Assembly: GCA_903874895.1 (NCBI GenBank)
Contig: CAIQUG010000118.1
Location: forward strand, 1-64,000
DNA: 64,000 bases
Direction: 5' to 3'
DNA from: an uncultured Caulobacterales bacterium
GTDB lineage: Bacteria > Pseudomonadota > Alphaproteobacteria > Caulobacterales > Caulobacteraceae
Within the stretch, counting starts at the first letter, position 1, and each line of letters opens with the position of its first letter. The translations under genes and the position numbers were made by a program. This document shows positions 23,775 to 34,473 of this stretch, piece after piece. The notes under the pieces were generated by a model. The model had not been told where the DNA came from, made no database searches, and saw only the letters and a program-made list of their open reading frames with translations.

Positions 23775-24257
23775 TTATTCCGACGCGGGACCGGGCACGG
23801 ACACGCCCGGGCTGGCCGGGGCCGCCCCACCACCGCCGCTGCCGCCGGCGCCGCCCGTCCGAATGCTGACCTGGCAGTTGGGGGAGCAGGCCATGTCCGT
23901 CCGCTCAGCCCCGCGGAACACGCTCACGCGGCCCGTGTGGGCCACGCCGACCACGACTTCCGTGGAGTAGAGGGTCCGGCCGCTGGCATCGAGGACCACG
24001 ACGTCGGTCACGCCATAGCCCCGGCCGCTGACGAACAGGGTGTGGCTGTCCACAACGGTCACGTCCGCGACCGTCGGATTTCCGACCACCACGGATTGGG
24101 CCGCTCCGGCGACCTTCAGGCGTGTGGAGTGATCCAGAGGCACGACCAGCGCCTCGGCCCGGGCCGTGGTCGCGCCGGCAAACAGGGTCAGGGCCGCGGC
24201 GGCCGCAAGCGAAAAGATCGTGATCGGTCGAAGCGAAGGAGGTGAACCGAAGCGCAT
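23775..24257 (-). CDS. secretin N-terminal-domain-like pilus protein
   Basis: 160-aa exported protein. Signal peptide about 1-34 (ending ARA), then one domain of the type found at the N-terminus of CpaC/RcpA secretins: VPLDHSTRLKVAGAAQSVVVGNPTVADVTVVDSHTLFVSGRGYGVTDVVVLD. It stops before any secretin pore domain. A distal CSPNC pair and a Gly/Ala/Pro/Ser-rich tail follow. Compare cpaC at 27.1 kb, which carries the same VSNPKVAEV...VYLLGQTAGQTDAVFFD unit. Divergent from pilA and therefore probably part of the pilus system; it may bind the secretin or pilus periplasmic parts. Confidence 0.82.
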   Translation of the reverse strand: MRFGSPPSLRPITIFSLAAAAALTLFAGATTARAEALVVPLDHSTRLKVAGAAQSVVVGNPTVADVTVVDSHTLFVSGRGYGVTDVVVLDASGRTLYSTEVVVGVAHTGRVSVFRGAERTDMACSPNCQVSIRTGGAGGSGGGGAAPASPGVSVPGPASE

Positions 24258-24633: not shown

Positions 24634-24770
24634 AATTATGAAAATGCATCAATGGGTATTAACCGCAAGTGAAGCTGCACCCCCCGCATATTAGCAGCGA
24701 TTTGTTCTAGTTAATATACAGTAACGTTAATTTTCTCATTACTATATTATCGAAATTATTGGTTGTTGAC

Positions 24771-24785
24771 TTCACCTAACATTAA
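24771..24785 (+). promoter_or_regulatory. candidate CtrA box upstream of pilA
   Basis: TTCA-CCTAACA-TTAA, followed by CC. It fits the CtrA consensus TTAA-N7-TTAA with one mismatch and keeps the TTAACC half common in Caulobacter sites. It lies about 90 bp before the pilA ATG, a workable activation distance. Supported by family knowledge of pilA regulation, not by measured binding. Confidence 0.45.
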
Positions 24786-24873
24786 CCCCCATGCGGCAAA
24801 TTACTCAGGCAATAAGGGGTCAGGCGAGTGGAAACGCTCTTACCCCGCTCGCTTGGCAAATGAGGAGAACACT

Positions 24874-25038
24874 ATGACCAAGTTCGTTTCGCGCTTCCTG
24901 AAGAACGAGTCCGGCGCCACCGCCATTGAGTACGGCCTGATTGCCGCCCTGATCGCCGTCGTGGTGATCGGTGCCGTGACCGCCGTCGGCAACAACCTGA
25001 GCGGCAAGTTCAATAACATCGCGAACTCCGTGAAGTAA
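24874..25038 (+). CDS. pilA: Flp/Fap-type major pilin
   Basis: 54-aa type IVb prepilin. The ATG at 24874 has a strong TGAGGAGAAC ribosome site. Leader MTKFVSRFLKNESG (14 residues) is followed by ATAIEYGLIAALIAV with the +5 glutamate (E19), the classic Flp prepilin cleavage region. The mature pilin is about 40 residues, a single hydrophobic helix plus a polar tail. It is first in the cpa locus and is followed by a strong terminator, which would let it be made in excess over the assembly genes. CpaA at 25.4 kb is its likely processing peptidase. Confidence 0.95.
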   Translation: MTKFVSRFLKNESGATAIEYGLIAALIAVVVIGAVTAVGNNLSGKFNNIANSVK

Positions 25039-25137
25039 TCTGGCTTCATTCCGGCAGCCGGGCGTCAGGTACGTCACGGCTGTCGGGATGGGCTCGCGGA
25101 CCTCGCCTCCAGAGCGAGATCCGGCATCTGCCTGACG

Positions 25138-25174
25138 GGGCCGCGACGTTCAAAGGTTGCGGCCCTTTCTTTTT
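25138..25174 (+). terminator. rho-independent terminator after pilA
   Basis: A 10-bp stem GGGCCGCGAC / GTTGCGGCCC (one G-U pair), an 8-base loop and the T-rich tail TTTCTTTTT. It lies 100 bp after the pilA stop and just before the second pilin gene, so pilA is likely a separate or partly read-through transcript. Confidence 0.88.
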
Positions 25175-25197
25175 GCCCCCGTGACGGAGACCGTCCG

Positions 25198-25362
25198 ATG
25201 CGATTGCTCTTGGAAGATTTTGCTTCGGACCAGTCCGGCGCCACCGCCATTGAATATGGCCTGCTCGTCGCCCTGATCGGCCTGGTGGTGGTCGCCGCGA
25301 TGACCAATCTCTCCAACGTCATCTGGAACAAGCTGAACAACGTCGCGGTCGCCATTAAATAG
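25198..25362 (+). CDS. second Flp-type pilin, paralogue of PilA
   Basis: A 54-aa prepilin of the same length as PilA and easily missed by length cut-offs. It reads MRLLLEDFASDQSG (14-residue leader), then ATAIEYGLLVALIGLVV, so the G/A cleavage site and +5 Glu (E19) are preserved, and the tail is NVIWNKLNNVAVAIK. The leader is less basic than PilA's (one Arg, three acidic residues). The ATG at 25198 is preceded by GGAGACCGTCCG. It sits between the pilA terminator and cpaA, so it may be expressed with the assembly genes as a low-abundance or minor pilin; this is inference. Confidence 0.9.
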   Translation: MRLLLEDFASDQSGATAIEYGLLVALIGLVVVAAMTNLSNVIWNKLNNVAVAIK

Positions 25363-25431
25363 GGGCTAAACGCTTCTTTATAGGGTGACCGGCTAGGATG
25401 CCGTTCTGTCTTCACGGAAGCTGAGCCGCGC

Positions 25432-25953
25432 ATGTCTCCTTTGAATCTTCTGATCGTCGGGTTGTTTCCCGCCGTGGTCATCTTCGCTGCGCTGCGCGAT
25501 GCGACCACCATGACCATTCCCAACTGGCTTTGCGGCCTCGGTGCGCTGATGTTCGTCCCGGCGGCCCTGATCAGCGGCCTGAACCTCGGAACGGCCGGCA
25601 TCGCCCTCGCCGTGGGCTTTGCGTCCCTGGTCGCCGGAATCGGCCTGTTCGCCGCCCGCTGGGTCGGCGGGGGCGACGCAAAACTGTTCGCGGTCTGCGG
25701 TCTATGGCTCGGCTGGCCGTCCTGGATCGAATTCGTCATGTGGACGGCCATTGCGGGTGGCGGCCTCGCCATCGGCCTGATCGCATCCCGAAAGCTTGCA
25801 ACCCTGTGGCCGGTCAGGATGCCGGCCTGGACAGCTCGACTGCTCAGTCCGGGCGGTGACATTCCCTACGGCATCGCCATCTGCGTCGGGGCCCTGTGCG
25901 CCTTCCCGGACAGCCCTGTGATGCACGCCGTACGTCTGGCCAGCAAGGTCTGA
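25432..25953 (+). CDS. cpaA: prepilin peptidase CpaA (A24 family)
   Basis: 173-aa membrane aspartyl protease that cleaves Flp prepilins. Catalytic aspartates are D23 (AALRDATTMTIPN) and D82 in the GxGD-type motif GGGDAKLF. About five helices. It lacks the cytoplasmic methyltransferase domain of PilD-type enzymes, as normal for TadV/CpaA. Starts 69 bp after the second pilin. Confidence 0.94.
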   Translation: MSPLNLLIVGLFPAVVIFAALRDATTMTIPNWLCGLGALMFVPAALISGLNLGTAGIALAVGFASLVAGIGLFAARWVGGGDAKLFAVCGLWLGWPSWIEFVMWTAIAGGGLAIGLIASRKLATLWPVRMPAWTARLLSPGGDIPYGIAICVGALCAFPDSPVMHAVRLASKV

Positions 25954-26194
25954 GAGCCTCGCCCGGCCTTGACTGCCAAGGGTTCGCGCCCCCAAGGGCG
26001 GAAGGCCCGTAGATCCCCGCACACAGCGTGATGGACTGGCTGAAGCGCTCCTGACGCCATTGTTAATCAAAAAGCGCCACTCGACCACAAAGGCTTAGTC
26101 GAACGTTAACCTGCGACGACCAAGGTCGAGGCCGTCGGGTGTGCCGGATTCCGCGATTGGCCCAAAATCGGCGCGATGCATCGGAGCTGGGGTC
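25954..26194 (+). promoter_or_regulatory. intergenic region before cpaB
   Basis: 241 bp without a gene. It contains AT-rich TTGTTAATCAAAAA and, further on, ACGTTAACC, which look like CtrA half sites, plus one GANTC methylation motif at about 26147. A separate promoter for cpaB onward is likely. No terminator of convincing strength was found. Confidence 0.4.
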
Positions 26195-27085
26195 ATGGGT
26201 CCGAAACGGATCATCGTATTAAGCATCGCCGGCATTGCCGCCGTCATGGCGCTATTCCTGTTTCGAGGTCTTGCGACCAGCAAGGAACACAAGCCCGCCC
26301 CGGTACAGGTGGTCCAGGCCGGACCGGCCCTGATCTATGTGGCGGTTGCCGGGCGCGATATCAGCGTCGGAGACCGTCTCGCGGAATCGGATCTGACCTG
26401 GCAGGCCTGGCCCGCCGCGAACATCAACCCCGACTACGTCACCAACGGTCCTGTTCCCAACTTCACCGGCAATACCGGAGTCGGCAAGGCGGCAGGCGGT
26501 GCCATCGCGGTGGCGGACTCCGTCAAGCAGCGGGCGCTCGGCATGCAGGGAACCCCCGGCGAGGTCTTCCTCGGCGGCGTCGCGAAGGAAATCGTGCGCA
26601 AGGGCGAGCCGGTGGTCCTGGCCAAGGTGGTCCGCGCCGGCCAGTCCGGCGTGATGGCCGTTCGCCTCGAGCCCGGCATGCGCGCCATGGCCATTCCCCT
26701 CTCCCCGGAGAGCTCCGCCGGAGGCTTTGTCCTTCCCGGTGACCATGTGGACGTGGTGCAGGTCCGCAAACTCGACGGCGGCGTCGTGACCTCGACCACC
26801 GTCATGAAGAACGTCCGCGTCCTGGCCATCGATCAGAGCACCTCGACCTCGACCAAGGGCTCGACCCTCGGTGCCACCGCCACCCTGGAGGTCGCTCCGG
26901 AGCAGGCGGAAAACCTCGTCCTGGCCCGCGCCCAGGGCGAGCTGACCCTGGTGCTGCGCTCCTATGCCGATGTGGGCGGTCCGACGGTCGACAGCATGGT
27001 CAAGCGCGCCCAGGCCCTGATCGCGACCCCGGTCGTCCGTGTCTACCGCAATGCTGCCCCAACTGAAGTCAAGGTCGCCCGGTGA
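26195..27085 (+). CDS. cpaB: Flp pilus assembly protein CpaB
   Basis: 296 aa from the ATG at 26195 (GGAGCTGGGG upstream). One N-terminal membrane anchor, then a SAF domain (VAVAGRDISVGDRLAESDLTWQ) and the RcpC/CpaB domain (AMAIPLSPESSAGGFVLPGDHVDVVQVRKL). CpaB is a periplasmic/inner-membrane part of the Tad machine, thought to contact the secretin. Its stop overlaps the cpaC GTG (GTGA). Confidence 0.95.
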   Translation: MGPKRIIVLSIAGIAAVMALFLFRGLATSKEHKPAPVQVVQAGPALIYVAVAGRDISVGDRLAESDLTWQAWPAANINPDYVTNGPVPNFTGNTGVGKAAGGAIAVADSVKQRALGMQGTPGEVFLGGVAKEIVRKGEPVVLAKVVRAGQSGVMAVRLEPGMRAMAIPLSPESSAGGFVLPGDHVDVVQVRKLDGGVVTSTTVMKNVRVLAIDQSTSTSTKGSTLGATATLEVAPEQAENLVLARAQGELTLVLRSYADVGGPTVDSMVKRAQALIATPVVRVYRNAAPTEVKVAR

Positions 27086-28821
27086 CTCCGAACCTGCACC
27101 CCACGCCGCTGGTCCGCCGCCCGCTCCCGGGCACACCCGCCCGTTGGCGCGCCGCCCTGTGCGCGCTTCTCGCCGCCACGAGCCTGTCCGCCGGACTCCT
27201 TGAGACAGCGGCCGCCGCCGCAGCTCCAGGCAGCGACAGCGCTCTGGCCGGTGCCCCGAAGCGCGGCCGCGAGGCGGTTGCCCGGCGCGCCCGGGCACAG
27301 GCGGCCACCGCCGCTGCTGCCGCGGCCGCGGCGAGTGCCCAGACCGACCCGGCCTCGGCCGTTCAGACACCTGTCAATGAGCAGACCGTCCGCGTCGATC
27401 TCGGCGGTGGCGGAGCCTCCCGGTCGCTGACCCTGCCCCGGGGCAAGTCGGCGGTGATCGAGCTCCCGGTGGACGCCCGCGACGTGGTGGTCTCCAATCC
27501 CAAGGTCGCGGAGGTGATCCTGTCGACCCCTCGGCGGGTCTATCTGCTCGGCCAGACCGCAGGCCAGACAGACGCCGTCTTCTTTGACGGCTCGGGTCGC
27601 CAGCTGCTGCGCCTCGAGGTGCGGGTTGACCAGGACGTATCCGGCATTGCCCAGACCCTCGGACGGATGCTGCCGGGCTCACAGCTCCATGTCGAAGCGG
27701 TCAATGACAGCGTGATCCTGTCGGGTCAGGTCCCCGATGCGGCCTCGGCGGACAAGGCGGTCCGGGTGGCCGGCGGCTTTGTCAGCAAGCCGGAGAACGT
27801 GATCAACATGCTGAGCATCGCCGGGCCCGAGCAGGTGATGCTCAAGGTCCGGATCGTCGAGGTGAACCGCTCGATCATCAAGCAGCTGGGCTTCAACCTG
27901 AGCACCCTGGTGGGCCAGACCGGCATGAACCAGTATCTGGCCGGCATCTCCCCGACCTACGGGGTGAACGGCGCGCTGATGGGCGGTCTTACGGGCGGCT
28001 ACAAGATCGACACCACGTCCCAGCCGGAGCTGCCCTGCGCCAGCGGCATCGGCAACTGCGTCGTGCACGGATCGACCTCCGGCTACACCAACTGGAACAC
28101 CGCCGTTCCCGCGGCGACCGCCGGTTCCACCGGCGTGAACCAGGCCAAGGCGATGATCCAGGCCTTCGAACGGGTCGGCCTCGTCCGCACCCTGGCCGAA
28201 CCCAATGTGACGGCGATCTCGGGCGAGAGCGCCAAGTTCCTGGCCGGTGGGGAGTTCCCCGTGCCGGTGAGCCAGGACTCCAGCGGTCGGATTACCGTGG
28301 AATTCAAGCAATACGGTGTCGGGCTGGGCTTCTCGCCGGTAGTGCTGGGTCCGGGACGGATCTCGCTGAAGGTGTCCACCGAAGTGTCGGAGATCAGCAG
28401 TCTGAACGCCTTCTCCGCCTCCGGATCCACATCCGGGTCCGCCCTGGTGATCCCCGGCCTGAACGTCCGTCGGGTCGAAACCACGGTGGAACTGCCCTCC
28501 GGCGGTGCGCTGATGCTCGCAGGGCTGCTTCAGAACACGACCAAGCAGACCCTCGACGCCCTGCCCGGGCTGATGGAACTGCCGGTGATCGGGCCCCTGT
28601 TCCGGTCGCGGGACTTCCTGAACAACCAGAGCGAACTGGTGGTGATCATCACGCCCTATCTGGTGAAGGGAACCAGCCCCGACCAGCTGTCGACCCCCGC
28701 GGACGGGCTGGTGATCGCCAATGACTTCGAGACCGATCTTCTCGGTCACCTGAATTCCGGCTTCACCAAGCCGGCCGCCGGCGCGACCTACCAGGGACCC
28801 TTCGGCTATGTTGTGGAGTAA
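27082..28821 (+). CDS. cpaC: outer-membrane secretin CpaC
   Basis: 579-aa secretin forming the pilus exit channel. Signal peptide (about 1-47), then an Ala/Arg-rich spacer to about 95. Next come the pilus-type N-domain (VIELPVDARDVVVSNPKVAEV), a BON-like VNDSVILSGQVPDAASADKAVRVA, and the secretin C-domain with QVMLKVRIVEVNRSIIKQLG and LMLAGLLQNTTKQTLDALPGL...LVVIITPYLV. A ring insert includes two cysteines (LPCASGIGNCVV) that may form a disulfide. GTG start overlaps cpaB. Confidence 0.96.
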   Translation: MTPNLHPTPLVRRPLPGTPARWRAALCALLAATSLSAGLLETAAAAAAPGSDSALAGAPKRGREAVARRARAQAATAAAAAAAASAQTDPASAVQTPVNEQTVRVDLGGGGASRSLTLPRGKSAVIELPVDARDVVVSNPKVAEVILSTPRRVYLLGQTAGQTDAVFFDGSGRQLLRLEVRVDQDVSGIAQTLGRMLPGSQLHVEAVNDSVILSGQVPDAASADKAVRVAGGFVSKPENVINMLSIAGPEQVMLKVRIVEVNRSIIKQLGFNLSTLVGQTGMNQYLAGISPTYGVNGALMGGLTGGYKIDTTSQPELPCASGIGNCVVHGSTSGYTNWNTAVPAATAGSTGVNQAKAMIQAFERVGLVRTLAEPNVTAISGESAKFLAGGEFPVPVSQDSSGRITVEFKQYGVGLGFSPVVLGPGRISLKVSTEVSEISSLNAFSASGSTSGSALVIPGLNVRRVETTVELPSGGALMLAGLLQNTTKQTLDALPGLMELPVIGPLFRSRDFLNNQSELVVIITPYLVKGTSPDQLSTPADGLVIANDFETDLLGHLNSGFTKPAAGATYQGPFGYVVE

Positions 28822-28828
28822 GACCGGC

Positions 28829-29554
28829 ATGACGCGCACACCGCTCATCACAGCCCTTGCAGTCTCCGCCCTGATGCTGTCGGCCTGCGCGACGGGGGGT
28901 GCCCGCCACGCGGCAGCACCGGTCCGGCCGACCAAGGCCGTCAACCCGACCTATGATCCGAAGGCGCGCACGGAGCTGGACCGCTACCGCGCTGCCACGC
29001 GGGAAACCGATGGAGAGCTGGCGCTCGCCCAGCACCCCAACGGCCGCCTGTCCGATGCCCAGAAGACCGCCCTGATCTCCCTCGCGCAGGCCAATCTTGG
29101 CTCGGAGGGCTCGACCTTCATCATCCGGACCGCCACGGGCGAGACGAATTTCGGTGACGCCGCCCAGACGGCCCGGGCCGCCGCGGAGGTGATGCGGGCA
29201 TCCGGGATCCCCACATCGCGGATCCTGATGGACCACTACGACGCCACCAGTTCCGGCGCCCCCGTCAAGATCACCTACCGGACCCTCGTCGCCGTCGGAC
29301 CCGACTGCCGCAAAGGCTGGGATGACATGGCCGCGACCGGATCCAACCGGAACTACGGCCATTTCGGCTGCGCCGCTTCGGCCAACCTTGCCGCCATGAT
29401 CGCCGACCCGCGGGATCTCCAGCATCCCGCAGCCGAAGATCCCTCGGACGCGACCCGACGGGGCGTGACCCTCGGCAAGTACCGGAAGGGTGAGCAGACC
29501 TCGGCCGCCAAGGATGATCAGGCCTCCGGTGCCGTTTCCAGTTCGGTCAAATAG
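28829..29554 (+). CDS. cpaD: pilus assembly lipoprotein CpaD
   Basis: 241 aa from the ATG at 28829 (GGAG 10 bases upstream). Signal peptide with lipobox LMLSACATG. The CpaD/TadZ-neighbour domain contains FIIRTATGETNFGDAAQTARAA and ends with the family motif NYGHFGCAASANLAAMIADPRDL. Presumed secretin pilotin or stabiliser in the outer membrane. It is followed two bases later by cpaE. Confidence 0.94.
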   Translation: MTRTPLITALAVSALMLSACATGGARHAAAPVRPTKAVNPTYDPKARTELDRYRAATRETDGELALAQHPNGRLSDAQKTALISLAQANLGSEGSTFIIRTATGETNFGDAAQTARAAAEVMRASGIPTSRILMDHYDATSSGAPVKITYRTLVAVGPDCRKGWDDMAATGSNRNYGHFGCAASANLAAMIADPRDLQHPAAEDPSDATRRGVTLGKYRKGEQTSAAKDDQASGAVSSSVK

Positions 29555-29556
29555 CG

Positions 29557-30948
29557 ATGGCCTTCACAATGTCCGATCAGTCTGCTGACCTCGACCCGTT
29601 CGACGCCGATGAAGGCCTCGACGAGCCGCAATGGGTAACCGCGGAGGCACCTGCGCCGGACTATGGCGTTCATGGGGTCGATCCGATCCCTGCGGCCCCG
29701 CCGACCGGCGGTGGTGCCCTGATTTCCCTCGACGACTCGGCGGCTGGCGAACTGCCGGTTCCCCGGATTGCGATCCACTTCTTCTGCCGCAACGAGGAAA
29801 CCGCGGCGGCGGCGGCGCGCGCCGCGTCCGACAGACGTCTGTCCCGGGCCACGCCCAAGGTGCTCCGCGGCGGTCTCACCGAAGCCATCGCCATTTATCA
29901 GGAACAGCCGACCCCGCCGCTGATCGTGGTCGAATGCCTGGAGCCGGGCATGGAGCTGCTCCAGAAGCTCGAAGTCCTGGCCGAGGTGTGTGACCCGAAC
30001 ACCAAGGTGGTGGTGATCGGAGCATCCAACGACATTGCCCTCTACCGCGAACTGATCCGTCGCGGTGTGAGCGAGTATCTGGTTCCGCCGATCCAGCCGC
30101 TGCAACTGATCCGGACCATCGCCGGGCTCTATGCTGATCCGACCACTCCGTTCATGGGCCGGACCGTGGGATTCGTCGGATCCAAGGGTGGGGTCGGTGC
30201 CTCGACGCTCGCCCACAATATCGCCCACACCCTTGCCGAGCAGGTGAAGGTGAACACGGTGATCGCAGACTACGACCTGGCCTTCGGCACGGCCGGGCTC
30301 GATTTCAACCAGGACCCCCTGCAGGGCGTCTATGACGCGCTCCACCAGCCCGACCGCCTGGACCCGGTGCTGCTCGACCGCATGACGGCGCGCTGCACCG
30401 ACCGTCTCAGCCTGTTCGCCGCCCCGGCAACCCTCGACGACGTCTATGAATTCGGTCCTGAGGTGTTCGAGGAGGTGTTCAACCGGATCCGGACCACGGC
30501 CCCCTTCGTGGTGCTCGACATTCCGCACAGCTGGAACACTTGGGTAAAGCAGACGATCCTGGCCTGTGATGACCTGATCATGGTGGCGACACCGGACCTG
30601 GCCTCGCTGCGCAACGCGAAGAACATGATCGACCTGATCCGCAAGGCCCGTCCGAACGATGCCCCGCCCCGGCTGATCCTGAACCAGATGGGCGTGCCCG
30701 GCCGCCCGGAGATTCCCGTGAAGGAATTCGCCAAGGCCCTGCAGCTCGAGCCGGCCCTGGTTCTGCCCTTCGACGCCAAGCTGTTCGGCGAGGCCGCCAA
30801 CAACGGCCAGATGCTGTCCGAGATCAACCCGAAGGCCAAGGCCGTCGAAGGCCTTCTGGAGTTCGCTCTGGCGCTGTCGCGGCGGGAATCCGCACCGGCA
30901 CCGGCCAAGACACGATCGCTGATCGAGCGCCTTCTGAAGCGCGCCTGA
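29557..30948 (+). CDS. cpaE: pilus assembly ATPase CpaE (TadZ)
   Basis: 463-aa protein localising the Tad machine to the cell pole in related bacteria. An acidic N-terminal tail is followed by a pseudo-receiver domain (about 70-195; PLIVVECLEPGMELLQKLEVLAEVCDPNTKVVVIG). Then comes a MinD/ParA-type ATPase with deviant Walker A KGGVGAST (210-217) and VIADYDLAFGTAGLDF as Walker A'-like region. C-terminal basic helix RSLIERLLKRA. Confidence 0.95.
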   Translation: MAFTMSDQSADLDPFDADEGLDEPQWVTAEAPAPDYGVHGVDPIPAAPPTGGGALISLDDSAAGELPVPRIAIHFFCRNEETAAAAARAASDRRLSRATPKVLRGGLTEAIAIYQEQPTPPLIVVECLEPGMELLQKLEVLAEVCDPNTKVVVIGASNDIALYRELIRRGVSEYLVPPIQPLQLIRTIAGLYADPTTPFMGRTVGFVGSKGGVGASTLAHNIAHTLAEQVKVNTVIADYDLAFGTAGLDFNQDPLQGVYDALHQPDRLDPVLLDRMTARCTDRLSLFAAPATLDDVYEFGPEVFEEVFNRIRTTAPFVVLDIPHSWNTWVKQTILACDDLIMVATPDLASLRNAKNMIDLIRKARPNDAPPRLILNQMGVPGRPEIPVKEFAKALQLEPALVLPFDAKLFGEAANNGQMLSEINPKAKAVEGLLEFALALSRRESAPAPAKTRSLIERLLKRA

Positions 30949-30964
30949 AGGAGGAGCGGAAACC

Positions 30965-32464
30965 TTGTTCGGTAAACGGAGTCCGTCTGCGCCCCAGGCC
31001 GCGCCGCCTCCGGCCCCCACCAAGGGGCCGGACATCGCGACGCGTCCACAGCGGGCGGAGACCCCTCGTGCCGAACCGGCCGACGCACCTGCCGCGAAGC
31101 CGCGGGCGACCTCGGGGCTGGACCAGCTGCGTGCCGCACAGGGCGGGGCGGTGTCGAACTCCGGACCGGTGGCGGAAATCGTCCGTGACCAGACGGATTA
31201 CTATCACGCCACCAAGACCACCATCTATTCCGCCCTGCTCAACACCATCGATCTCGGCCAGCTGGCCCAGCTCGACCACAAGACCGCTGCCGAGGAAATC
31301 CGCGACATCGTGGCGGAGCTGGTGGCGATCAAGAACGTCTCCATGTCCGCCGCCGAACAGGACCACCTGGTCCAGGACATCATCAACGACGTCCTCGGCT
31401 ATGGCCCCCTCGAGCCCCTGCTGAAACGCGACGACATCGCCGACATCATGGTCAACGGGGCCCACCGGGTGTTCATCGAAGTGGGCGGAAAGGTCCAGCT
31501 GACCAATGTCCGGTTCCGTGACAACGCCCAGCTGATGAATATCTGCCAGCGGATCGTGAGCCAGGTCGGCCGGCGGGTCGACGAAAGCTCGCCGATCTGC
31601 GACGCCCGTCTGCCCGACGGCAGCCGGGTCAACGTGATCGGGCCGCCCCTGGCTCTGGATGGTCCCACCCTGACCATCCGGAAGTTCAAGAAGGACAAGC
31701 TGACCATGCGGAACCTGGTCGAGTACGCCTCGATCAGTCCCGAAGGGGCCCGCGTGCTCGGCGTGATCGGTGCCAGCCGGTGCAATATCGTGATTTCCGG
31801 CGGTACCGGTTCCGGCAAGACGACCCTGCTGAATACCCTGACCGCCTTCATCGATCCGACCGAGCGGGTGATCACCTGCGAGGACGCCGCCGAACTGCAG
31901 CTGCAGCAGCCCCATGTGGTGCGACTGGAAACCCGTCCTCCGAACCTCGAGGGGCAGGGCGCGATCACCATGCGCGACCTCGTCAAGAACTGCCTGCGGA
32001 TGCGTCCAGAGCGGATCATCGTCGGCGAAGTCCGGGGGCCCGAGGCCTTCGACCTGCTGCAGGCCATGAACACAGGTCACGACGGTTCCATGGGCACGCT
32101 GCACGCCAACAGCCCGCGGGAAGCCATCAGCCGGATGGAATCCATGATCACCATGGGGGGCTACGGCCTCCCCTCGAAGACCATCCGCGAGATGATCGTG
32201 GGGTCCGTCGACGTGATCATCCAGGCGGCCCGTCTGCGGGACGGATCGCGCCGGATCACCCACATCACCGAGGTGCTGGGACTCGAAGGCGACGTGATCA
32301 TCACCCAGGACCTGTTCGTCTACGAAATGACCGGCGAGGACAAGGACGGGAAGATCATCGGTCGCCACCGGTCCACCGGGATCGCCCGCCCCCGCTTCTG
32401 GGATCGGGCCCGATACTACGGCCTCGACCGGGAACTGGCCGAAGCTCTGGACGCGGCGGAATAG
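30965..32464 (+). CDS. cpaF: pilus assembly ATPase CpaF (TadA)
   Basis: 499-aa secretion ATPase powering pilus extension and probably retraction. TTG start at 30965 with AAGGAGGAG upstream. Pro/Ala-rich N-terminal linker (about 1-60). Walker A is GGTGSGKT (279-286) and Walker B is RMRPERIIVGEVRGPEAFD; the Asp box (CEDAAELQLQ) and His box (GSMGTLHANSP) are intact. Confidence 0.96.
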   Translation: MFGKRSPSAPQAAPPPAPTKGPDIATRPQRAETPRAEPADAPAAKPRATSGLDQLRAAQGGAVSNSGPVAEIVRDQTDYYHATKTTIYSALLNTIDLGQLAQLDHKTAAEEIRDIVAELVAIKNVSMSAAEQDHLVQDIINDVLGYGPLEPLLKRDDIADIMVNGAHRVFIEVGGKVQLTNVRFRDNAQLMNICQRIVSQVGRRVDESSPICDARLPDGSRVNVIGPPLALDGPTLTIRKFKKDKLTMRNLVEYASISPEGARVLGVIGASRCNIVISGGTGSGKTTLLNTLTAFIDPTERVITCEDAAELQLQQPHVVRLETRPPNLEGQGAITMRDLVKNCLRMRPERIIVGEVRGPEAFDLLQAMNTGHDGSMGTLHANSPREAISRMESMITMGGYGLPSKTIREMIVGSVDVIIQAARLRDGSRRITHITEVLGLEGDVIITQDLFVYEMTGEDKDGKIIGRHRSTGIARPRFWDRARYYGLDRELAEALDAAE

Positions 32465-32475
32465 GGGAACAGACG

Positions 32476-33465
32476 ATGGACATGTCATCGATCTGGCCCG
32501 TCGTCGCCGCCCTGCTGGGCTTCGTGGCCCTCGCCGGCGTCGGCTGGGTGCTGGTCGGTGAGGAACCCACCAGCGCCAAGGCCAACAAACGCATCAGTGC
32601 TGTTGCCGCCGACACCAAGAGTGAAGCCGCCCGGGGTCGCACCACCCAGGATACGCAGGCCGCGCGGCGGAAACAGATCCTCCTGACCCTCAAGCAGCAG
32701 GAAAACCAGGACCGGAAGGCCAAGCTGAGCCTCGAGTCCCGCCTCATCCAGGCGGGTCTGTCCTTCACCGTCCGCGACTTCTGGGTCGGATCAGGGATCA
32801 TCGGCGTGGTCTCGGTCGTGGTGGCCCTGCTGCTTCGGGCGCCCATCCTGGCCGCCATCGGCATCGGGTTCGCCAGCGGGCTTGGCGTCCCGCGCTGGCT
32901 GTTGTCCACATTGGCCAAGGGTCGCGCCAAGAAATTCACCGAGGAATTCCCCAACGCCATCGACATCATCGTACGGGGCATCAAGTCCGGTCTGCCGGTG
33001 CATGACTGCATGCGTCTGATCGCCGCAGAAAGCCCTGAGCCGCTGGCCAAGGAGTTCAAGAAACTGATGGAGAGCATCGCCGTCGGCACCTCCATCGATC
33101 AGGCCCTCGAGAAGATGTATGACCGCATGCCCACGTCGGAGGTGCGGTTCTTCTCCATCGTGCTCGCGATCCAGCAGAAGACCGGCGGCAACCTCGCCGA
33201 AGCGCTGAACAACCTCTCCATCGTGCTCCGCGCGCGCAAGCTGCTGCGGGAGAAGATCAAGGCCCTCTCCGGCGAAGCCGTGGCGTCCGCCTTTATCATT
33301 GGATCCCTGCCCCCGGGGATCGGACTGATGGTGACCATCACCTCCCCCGGCTACATGAATCCGCTGATCAACGACCCCCGTGGACACGTGATCCTGGGGA
33401 TTGGCATCGGCATGGAGATGCTCGGCATCTTCGTCATGCGTCGCATGATCAACTTCAAGTTCTGA
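32476..33465 (+). CDS. tadB: Tad inner-membrane platform protein TadB/CpaG
   Basis: 329 aa from the ATG at 32476 (AGGGGAAC upstream). A type II secretion F-domain (about 140-265) contains AIDIIVRGIKSGLPVHDCMRLIAAESPEPLAKEFKKL and KTGGNLAEALNNLSIVLRARK. Membrane helices lie at both ends and before the F-domain. It forms the platform with TadC in the inner membrane, coupled to CpaF. Ten bp upstream of tadC. Confidence 0.95.
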   Translation: MDMSSIWPVVAALLGFVALAGVGWVLVGEEPTSAKANKRISAVAADTKSEAARGRTTQDTQAARRKQILLTLKQQENQDRKAKLSLESRLIQAGLSFTVRDFWVGSGIIGVVSVVVALLLRAPILAAIGIGFASGLGVPRWLLSTLAKGRAKKFTEEFPNAIDIIVRGIKSGLPVHDCMRLIAAESPEPLAKEFKKLMESIAVGTSIDQALEKMYDRMPTSEVRFFSIVLAIQQKTGGNLAEALNNLSIVLRARKLLREKIKALSGEAVASAFIIGSLPPGIGLMVTITSPGYMNPLINDPRGHVILGIGIGMEMLGIFVMRRMINFKF

Positions 33466-33474
33466 GGCGGGCCC

Positions 33475-34473
33475 ATGGAAAGCTTCATGGCGATCTTCGA
33501 GCCGGCCAACCTGCTCTCGATCTTCGTGGCCGTGATCGTGTTCGCCACTGTGGTGACGCTGGTGACGCCGATCCTGTACCGCGACCGCCTGACGGACCGC
33601 ATGAAGTCCGTCGCCAGCCGGCGGGATGAACTTCGCCGAATCGCCCGTGCCCAGATGCGCAACGAGGCACCGACCCTGCGTCAGACGGACGAGGGCTTCT
33701 ACAAGAAGGTCGTGGACCAGCTCCAGCTGTCACGCCTGCTGGAGGACCCGAAGGTCGTCGACACCCTCGCTCAGGCCGGATTCCGCGGCCCCCGGCCTGT
33801 CACCACCTTCTACTTCTTCCGGTTTGTCACACCGTTCGTCTTCCTGACCTTCGCCATCGTCTACATCTATGTGCTGAAGGCGATCGACTGGCCGGCCATG
33901 ACCAAGATCACGGCCTGCTGCGTGCTGTTCGTGGCCGGCTTCTATGCGCCGAACGTCTATCTGCAGAACGTCATCACCAAGCGTCGCACCGCGATTGTCG
34001 GCGCTTTCCCCGATGCCCTGGACCTTCTGCTGATCTGCGTGGAGTCCGGCATGTCCATCGAGCTCGCCATCCAGAAGGTGGCATCGGAAATCGGCACGCG
34101 CTCCATCGAACTGGCTGAGGAACTGACCCTGCTCAGCGCCGAGTTGTCCTATCTGCCCGAGCGCCGCCTCGCCTATGAGGGGTTGTCGAAGCGGGTCAAT
34201 TATCCGGGAATCAAGGCCGTCACCACGGCCATGACCCAGGCAGAGCGCTACGGCACGCCGCTCGGCACCGCCCTGCGAGTCATGGCCAAGGAAAACCGCG
34301 AATTACGCATCGCCGAGGCCGAGAAGATTGCCTCCCAGCTGCCCGCCAAGCTGACCGTCCCAATGGTGCTGTTCTTCCTGCCGGTGCTGTTCCTGGTGAT
34401 TCTCGGACCGGCCTACATCAAGGCGACGGACACCACCACCAAGAGCGACACCCAGCAGCGGATGCGTCACTGA
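33475..34473 (+). CDS. tadC: Tad inner-membrane platform protein TadC/CpaH
   Basis: 332-aa partner of TadB. N-terminal helix, a linker with QLQLSRLLEDPKVVDTLAQAGFRGPRP, two helices, then an F-domain with AFPDALDLLLICVESGMSIELAIQKVASEIG and TQAERYGTPLGTALRVMAKENRELR, and a C-terminal helix. It is the last gene of the rightward unit. No tadE, tadF or tadG minor pseudopilin genes follow in this window. Confidence 0.95.
   Translation: MESFMAIFEPANLLSIFVAVIVFATVVTLVTPILYRDRLTDRMKSVASRRDELRRIARAQMRNEAPTLRQTDEGFYKKVVDQLQLSRLLEDPKVVDTLAQAGFRGPRPVTTFYFFRFVTPFVFLTFAIVYIYVLKAIDWPAMTKITACCVLFVAGFYAPNVYLQNVITKRRTAIVGAFPDALDLLLICVESGMSIELAIQKVASEIGTRSIELAEELTLLSAELSYLPERRLAYEGLSKRVNYPGIKAVTTAMTQAERYGTPLGTALRVMAKENRELRIAEAEKIASQLPAKLTVPMVLFFLPVLFLVILGPAYIKATDTTTKSDTQQRMRH

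Follow-up and report, generated by a model that had tools for sequence, protein, structure and literature searches.

Results

A second Flp prepilin gene lies between pilA and cpaA

The DNA analysed here (the window, a stretch of 64,000 nucleotides) comes from a contig of 96 kb in a genome of 3.56 Mb, which belongs to a small genus of which 6 genomes were examined. CpaF relatives of the host's family are those of Caulobacter, Brevundimonas, Phenylobacterium and Asticcacaulis, and the nearest named relative is an uncultured Caulobacterales metagenome bin (L028, the same stretch as G004). As listed in Table 1, the locus comprises, in this order, pilA, a hairpin terminator, a second Flp prepilin gene, cpaA, and the genes from cpaB to two T2SSF platform genes.

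Table 1. Features of the pilA-cpaA region and the adjoining Tad machine genes (positions in the window)
Feature	Position	Strand	Details
CtrA-like box, further one upstream of pilA	24659-24673		
CtrA-like box TTCA-cctaaca-TTAA, upstream of pilA	24771-24785	+	1 mismatch
Conserved structured pilA leader, proposed H-type pseudoknot	24818-24858 (approximate limits)	+	GGGGU/ACCCC and CAGGCGAG/CUCGCUUG
pilA, major Flp prepilin	24874-25038	+	54 aa, 14-aa leader; Pfam Flp_Fap 73.7 bits
Intrinsic terminator between pilA and second pilin	25137-25175	+	hairpin 25137-25166 plus T tract
Shine-Dalgarno-like ACGGAG	25184-25189	+	~8 nt 5' of the second-pilin ATG
Second Flp prepilin	25198-25362	+	54 aa: leader 14 aa, mature part 40 aa with Trp29 and Leu32
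CtrA-like box TTAA-atagggg-CTAA	25355-25369	+	overlaps the second pilin's stop; not conserved
cpaA, prepilin peptidase	25432-25953	+	Pfam Peptidase_A24 62.2 bits
CtrA-like box TTAG-tcgaacg-TTAA, before cpaB	26095-26109	+	
Tad machine	26195-34473	+	cpaB/RcpC, cpaC secretin, cpaD, cpaE, cpaF ATPase, two T2SSF platform proteins (Pfam, ORF table)

The initial annotation had proposed a complete second prepilin gene at 25198-25362, and this was confirmed. Indeed, the plus-strand reading frame translates into the 54-aa protein MRLLLEDFASDQSG/ATAIEYGLLVALIGLVVVAAMTNLSNVIWNKLNNVAVAIK (the slash marks the cleavage site), which matches Pfam PF04964 (Flp_Fap) with 52.8 bits (E 3.5e-14; curated cut-off 32.2), and orthologues occupy the same place in related genomes (see below). 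Leader length, cleavage motif and total length had also been described correctly as equal to those of PilA: both proteins have 54 aa and 14-aa leaders, and the motif G/ATAIEY fits a short G/xxxxEY prepilin with a hydrophobic stretch. The mature pilin retains Glu5 and Tyr6, which are invariant in the two pilin alignments examined. Overall identity to PilA is 46%, with the difference spread over the second half. The Flp/Tad (type IVc) linkage is found as well, with cpaA 69 nt downstream and cpaB to the T2SSF genes next. With its 54 aa and Flp_Fap as its sole match, the protein is not a TadE/TadF-type minor pilin, for which a TadE profile match and ~180-220 aa are expected. The GACGGAG that contains its Shine-Dalgarno-like site is conserved in genomes G004 and G002. 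A more acidic leader than that of PilA had likewise been claimed, which is true of this genome (net charge -2 versus +2) but not of a stable trait, given that the nearest orthologue has a charge of 0 and the next one of -3; acidity as a defining trait was rejected, since it also gave no significant difference between the classes defined below over 18 loci (p 0.14).

The AlphaFold2 model of the second pilin is helical throughout (pLDDT 84). Searching the PDB with the fold of this short helix returned zero matches and structure therefore contributes nothing to the assignment, while a sequence search retrieved PilA (8u1k, E 7e-5). PADLOC gave no match. A 262-aa reverse-strand reading frame that covers the gene (25074-25862) has no Pfam match and was taken as a chance reading frame.

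CpaA has a single match in its own genome, which makes it the only copy found, and the genome encodes one full-length CpaF. The second pilin therefore has to share the peptidase and the machine of PilA. Four TadE-like minor pilins are encoded elsewhere in the genome, on contigs C106 and C132. Two orphan Flp genes were also observed, at 1459-1644 of locus L002 (contig C199) and near 1501-1644 of locus L003 (contig C202), in both cases with tad genes absent beside them within the 3-kb loci; the mature part of the C199 product is very close to PilA. Together with the tandem pair, these genes imply that one machine serves four Flp pilins. Upstream of pilA, a reverse-strand 160-aa reading frame (23775-24257) matches T2SS-T3SS_pil_N, an N-terminal domain of secretins, with 67 bits and lacks a secretin part, and was read as a stand-alone CpaC-like domain protein.

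A conserved terminator separates the two pilin genes

The two pilin genes are 159 nt apart, with ~30 nt between the hairpin and the second ATG. Taken alone, the terminator pattern scan was at chance level (3 found versus 2.3 expected in the region). Compared with shuffled sequences, the hairpin folds with a z-score of -2.6, and the orthologous hairpins of three related genomes reach -3.6, -3.8 and -4.4. The hairpin is found in all four of these genomes of the genus, in which the two genes are closely spaced, amid an otherwise diverged gap, and one position of its stem is paired as G-U, G-C or A-U across them, a compensatory change. Folding scores, conservation and covariation thus argue that the predicted terminator, which the initial annotation had placed between the two pilins, is real. 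Most other close-spaced tandem loci likewise have a similar GC-rich hairpin with a T tract in this position; among those that do not are Caulobacter loci with a gap of <30 nt, so short that the two genes must share one transcript.

CtrA-like boxes and a structured leader precede pilA

We scored as a CtrA-like box any site with at most one mismatch to TTAA-N7-TTAA, these being putative binding sites. Only 5 were found in the 64 kb, and 4 of them fall between 24659 and 26109. None lies in the 159-nt gap between pilA and the second pilin. In C. crescentus, CtrA expresses both PilA and CpaA, and GcrA induces the basal body (PMC11264516).

The pilA gene is further preceded by a leader with the letters GGGGU-CAGGCGAG...ACCCC-CUCGCUUG, just 5' of its Shine-Dalgarno site, which looks like an H-type pseudoknot. 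The same layout recurs with different, covarying letters before pilA in many Caulobacteraceae, and the second pilin has no such leader. In a MAFFT alignment of 33 leaders, 87% of the cells of stem 2 are paired, and the two pairs of this stem that vary most show two-sided changes 10 and 6 times; MAFFT aligned stem 1 poorly, and its pairing was assigned only by visual inspection or with a finder biased towards pairing. When the register was slid, pairing over the whole structure dropped from 72% to 34-52%, and an anchor test on the flanking positions gave p 0.004-0.009, uncorrected for relatedness. For the window leader the predicted minimum is a plain hairpin, from a folding program that cannot make pseudoknots. 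Rfam searches of the window and 11 related loci gave no family at gathering score, with nothing near it in this region, and a literature search on a pilA-leader structure found no paper.

The initial annotation had inferred high expression of pilA alone and a second pilin whose expression is linked to that of cpaA and the machine genes. A probably lower expression of the second pilin than of pilA is supported, given the terminator and the missing box and leader before the second gene. The link to cpaA stands in part: the genes are 69 nt apart and the terminator scan reported none between them, but the box overlapping the second pilin's stop is a candidate cpaA promoter element that could give cpaA its own start. 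This box is found in this genome only (1/19 loci, 0.34 expected), and a cpaA promoter at the pilin stop codon was rejected as a general feature. The link to the machine genes is weakened further, as cpaB starts ~240 nt past cpaA and is preceded by its own CtrA-like box and a GANTC site, so that the machine genes may form a separate unit. Within the cpaA-cpaB gap, the stretch 26078-26160, which holds the box, the GANTC site and a reverse-strand hairpin, suggests a separate cell-cycle promoter for these genes.

The second pilin is under purifying selection and changes faster than PilA

Of the 5 other genomes of the genus, 4 have an orthologue of the second pilin at this position; the fifth, G005, in which none was seen, is 88% complete and in ~610 contigs. 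Identity is 91% for G004 and 74% for G002, while the proteins of G003, whose gene reads from TTG, and G001, with an apparently longer leader, are more distant; the motif AMTNLSNxIWNKLN is conserved across three of the orthologues. Using Nei-Gojobori counts, we obtained dN/dS values of 0.12 (G000-G004), 0.35 (G000-G002) and 0.21 (G004-G002), with a significant synonymous excess in each pair (Fisher p 3e-5, 0.006 and 8e-5, respectively). Against G003 the ratio was ~0.5, and it was below 1 in every comparison. Neutral decay, which the initial annotation had named as a test to be run in close relatives, is ruled out by these values: the gene is retained and dN is well below dS. For PilA, dN/dS was ~0.03 in the same genome comparisons, and the protein change of the second pilin is ~5 times faster. 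The second pilin is thus a gene under purifying selection that changes several times faster than PilA.

Tandem Flp genes form two classes in related loci

A CpaF scan of genome contigs combined with family searches yielded 87 distinct loci with cpaA and, after removal of one double count, 80 with at least one Flp gene upstream of cpaA, a sample that is biased to CpaF relatives, unevenly spread and mostly from Caulobacterales. Of the 80, 39 carry two or three Flp genes in front of cpaA, while many relatives that have a tad locus carry only one. Pairs less than 200 nt apart (n=18) had a median identity of 0.50, compared with 0.96 for those farther apart (n=21; p 3e-7). We therefore defined class A as near-identical copies that are far apart, often with a CtrA-like box of their own, and class B as pilins that are divergent from PilA, less than ~200 nt behind pilA and without such a box. 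The second pilin of the window belongs to class B, with 46% identity, a 159-nt gap and no box in that gap. Caulobacter hibisci and C. radicis are cultured relatives that also have a class B pilin, but with no hairpin between it and pilA.

The boxes are distributed accordingly, though these counts come from related species and are not independent. The first pilin is preceded by a box in 17/19 class B loci (2.8 expected) and in 15/20 class A loci; further class A copies have one in 8/23 cases (1.7 expected), and class B second pilins in 1/19 (0.34 expected). The difference between first and second pilins of class B loci (17/19 versus 1/19) is significant (p 2e-7). From these patterns, class A copies resemble self-standing pilA units, and class B copies resemble passengers behind pilA and its terminator. 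In the pilin tree the class B copies form the longest branches. Their 19 members need 10 changes on this poorly resolved tree, and the starred branches force at least 4; one origin for all class B pilins is not resolvable with 54 residues and was set aside.

At locus L118 of genome G095 (1127-1674), we observed that the first mature pilin matches the Tad pilin of PDB 8u2b over the aligned residues, and that the second tandem pilin has a different leader and a mature part 98% identical to the first, so that a cryo-EM map could not easily separate the two. The tandem pilins of L118, L039, L042 and L044 all combine near-identical mature parts with leaders or tails that differ, as would be expected had gene conversion kept the mature pilins alike.

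A sub-lineage with a displaced aromatic residue

Of the 140 distinct mature Flp sequences collected, 120 have an aromatic residue, usually Phe, at position 32. Seven sequences instead carry an aromatic residue (Trp or Tyr) at position 29 together with Leu, Met or Ile at 32, a combination found in 0 of the other 133, and aromatics at both positions occur in 0/140. They coincide with the cpaA-proximal pilins of five genomes from the genus and two from genus g13, and position-29 aromatics were found in these two genera only; a profile built from the seven retrieved 0 further clear members from 299 family genomes. In the tree, the five members from the genus group with G032 (support 92; long-branch warning); G017 lies beside its own PilA. 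We read this as a new sub-lineage whose aromatic has moved from mature position 32 to 29, about one helical turn, and its survival in a fast-changing protein is the best sign of a specialised role.

Proposed role of the second pilin

Our preferred reading, which we hold with slightly more than even confidence, is that 25198-25362 encodes a second, functional structural subunit for the one Tad machine, a diverged tandem PilA paralogue made by low-level read-through and co-assembled with PilA. Since the second gene has a terminator in front and neither a CtrA-like box nor a structured leader, we take its protein to be the lower-level product. CtrA-timed transcription from the pilA promoter would mostly halt at the terminator, with the remainder reading into the second pilin and cpaA, and the second pilin would be produced together with PilA in the cell cycle, though in smaller amounts. 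CpaA would then cleave the prepilin, and the CpaF/CpaG/CpaH machine would build it into the PilA filament, where, as a minor or alternative subunit, it would alter the surface or the packing of the pilus. Read-through, low level, cleavage and co-assembly are all inferred from the gene arrangement and sequence; co-assembly in particular is drawn from homology, because helix-only Flp pilins carry little information. In the Caulobacter Tad pilus structure, a hydrogen-bond network of Glu5 and Tyr6 holds the filament together (PMC11067988).

The ~5-fold faster change relative to PilA is compatible with a weak or redundant function of the second pilin, and it can be read in more than one way. It might be the very point of a backup or alternative major pilin that builds pili alone when PilA is absent or selected against by phage. 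The pilus phage PhiCb5 contacts the pilin helix and C-terminal part, and pilin differences have been offered as a reason for the phage resistance of NA1000 (PMC11067988); the second pilin is unlike PilA over its second half, paralogous rhizobial pilins are thought to compensate for one another (PMC12918737), and other Caulobacteraceae retain two or three near-identical pilA copies. However, dN/dS is below 1 in every comparison, high expression is improbable with the gene's own box and leader missing, and filament formation by the second pilin alone is purely hypothetical, so that we regard this reading as unlikely, though worth keeping in mind. Somewhat less probable still is a near-redundant duplicate, produced by repeated tandem duplication and held under weak constraint with little effect. 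Tandem duplication is frequent (39/80 loci), class B has the longest branches and dN/dS reaches ~0.5 against G003, but the three closest genomes reveal significant purifying selection, the AMTNLSNxIWNKLN motif persists in three orthologues, and frame, cleavage motif, Shine-Dalgarno-like site and terminator are all conserved.

Expression offers a further alternative, which overlaps functionally with the backup pilin. With a terminator in front, the gene can only be expressed by read-through or from a new start, and a promoter of its own in the gap, active under conditions differing from those of pilA, would provide the latter; against this, the gap has no CtrA-like box, leaves ~30 nt from the hairpin to the ATG and is poorly conserved between species in its upstream part, and we give such a promoter as little credence as the redundant duplicate. 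The initial annotation had also suggested an initiating pilin. A specialised initiating or tip pilin would fit the probably low expression and the adjacent cpaA, but we consider it very improbable: the canonical TadE-like minor pilins, four in number, are encoded elsewhere in the genome, many tad-bearing relatives have a single Flp gene, in C. crescentus CpaL is predicted at the tip alongside other minor pilins (PMC12607857), and nothing indicated a tip role for this protein.

Returning to co-assembly at low level, we also consider a more specific and rather doubtful version, in which the aromatic-29 pilins would be a distinct, selected class of Tad subunit, sparse in PilA filaments, whose displaced aromatic alters packing and so tunes breakage, retraction, surface sensing or phage adsorption, with the leaky, cell-cycle-controlled terminator setting the stoichiometry.

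The Tad pilus of Caulobacter serves as a model of surface sensing and of phage entry. In the cited literature it is described as a filament of one pilin with additional tip pilins. A second Flp subunit is nonetheless encoded beside pilA in about half of the loci examined here, mostly from Caulobacterales. If the second pilin is incorporated into the filament, studies of Caulobacterales by pilus labelling, phage resistance or cryo-EM may need to allow for mixed filaments. The two classes predict different outcomes: class A copies would raise pilin dosage, whereas class B copies would add a different subunit at low level.

Comparison with known systems

Within the Caulobacteraceae, the class A tandem pilA genes of Brevundimonas and other members likewise place two to three Flp genes in front of cpaA. 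Their copies are mostly 84-100% identical and more than 200 nt apart, and several have a CtrA-like box and leader of their own, whereas the second pilin described here shares 46% identity with PilA and lacks both. The same gene order is known from the classical tad locus of Aggregatibacter actinomycetemcomitans, in which flp-1, flp-2 and the peptidase gene tadV are followed by the machine genes (PMC12905792) and whose transcription is called 'a termination cascade' in the title of Kram et al. 2008, as cited in PMC3767616. According to a review, loss of flp-2 is among the mutations that give reduced or altered fimbriation (PMC12905792). In Aggregatibacter, however, the machine follows tadV within one 14-gene operon, while here cpaB lies behind its own CtrA-like box; moreover, unlike flp-2, the class B second pilins are fast-changing and include the lineage with the shifted aromatic. 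The TAD operon of Bdellovibrio also has two Flp genes, flp1 and flp2, in one locus, and knock-outs of these abolish predation (PMC5430801), but flp2 is a trimmed version without the cleavage glycine, and no peptidase is encoded in the locus, whereas motif and peptidase are intact here. Sinorhizobium meliloti has several Flp pilins per genome, one of them outside the tad clusters (PMC10934763), a situation reminiscent of the two orphan Flp genes of our genome, although rhizobial pilin paralogues sit in separate loci and not in a tandem pair. The second-pilin arrangement is thus common in relatives and long known in other bacteria, and is a variant of a familiar system, not a new one.
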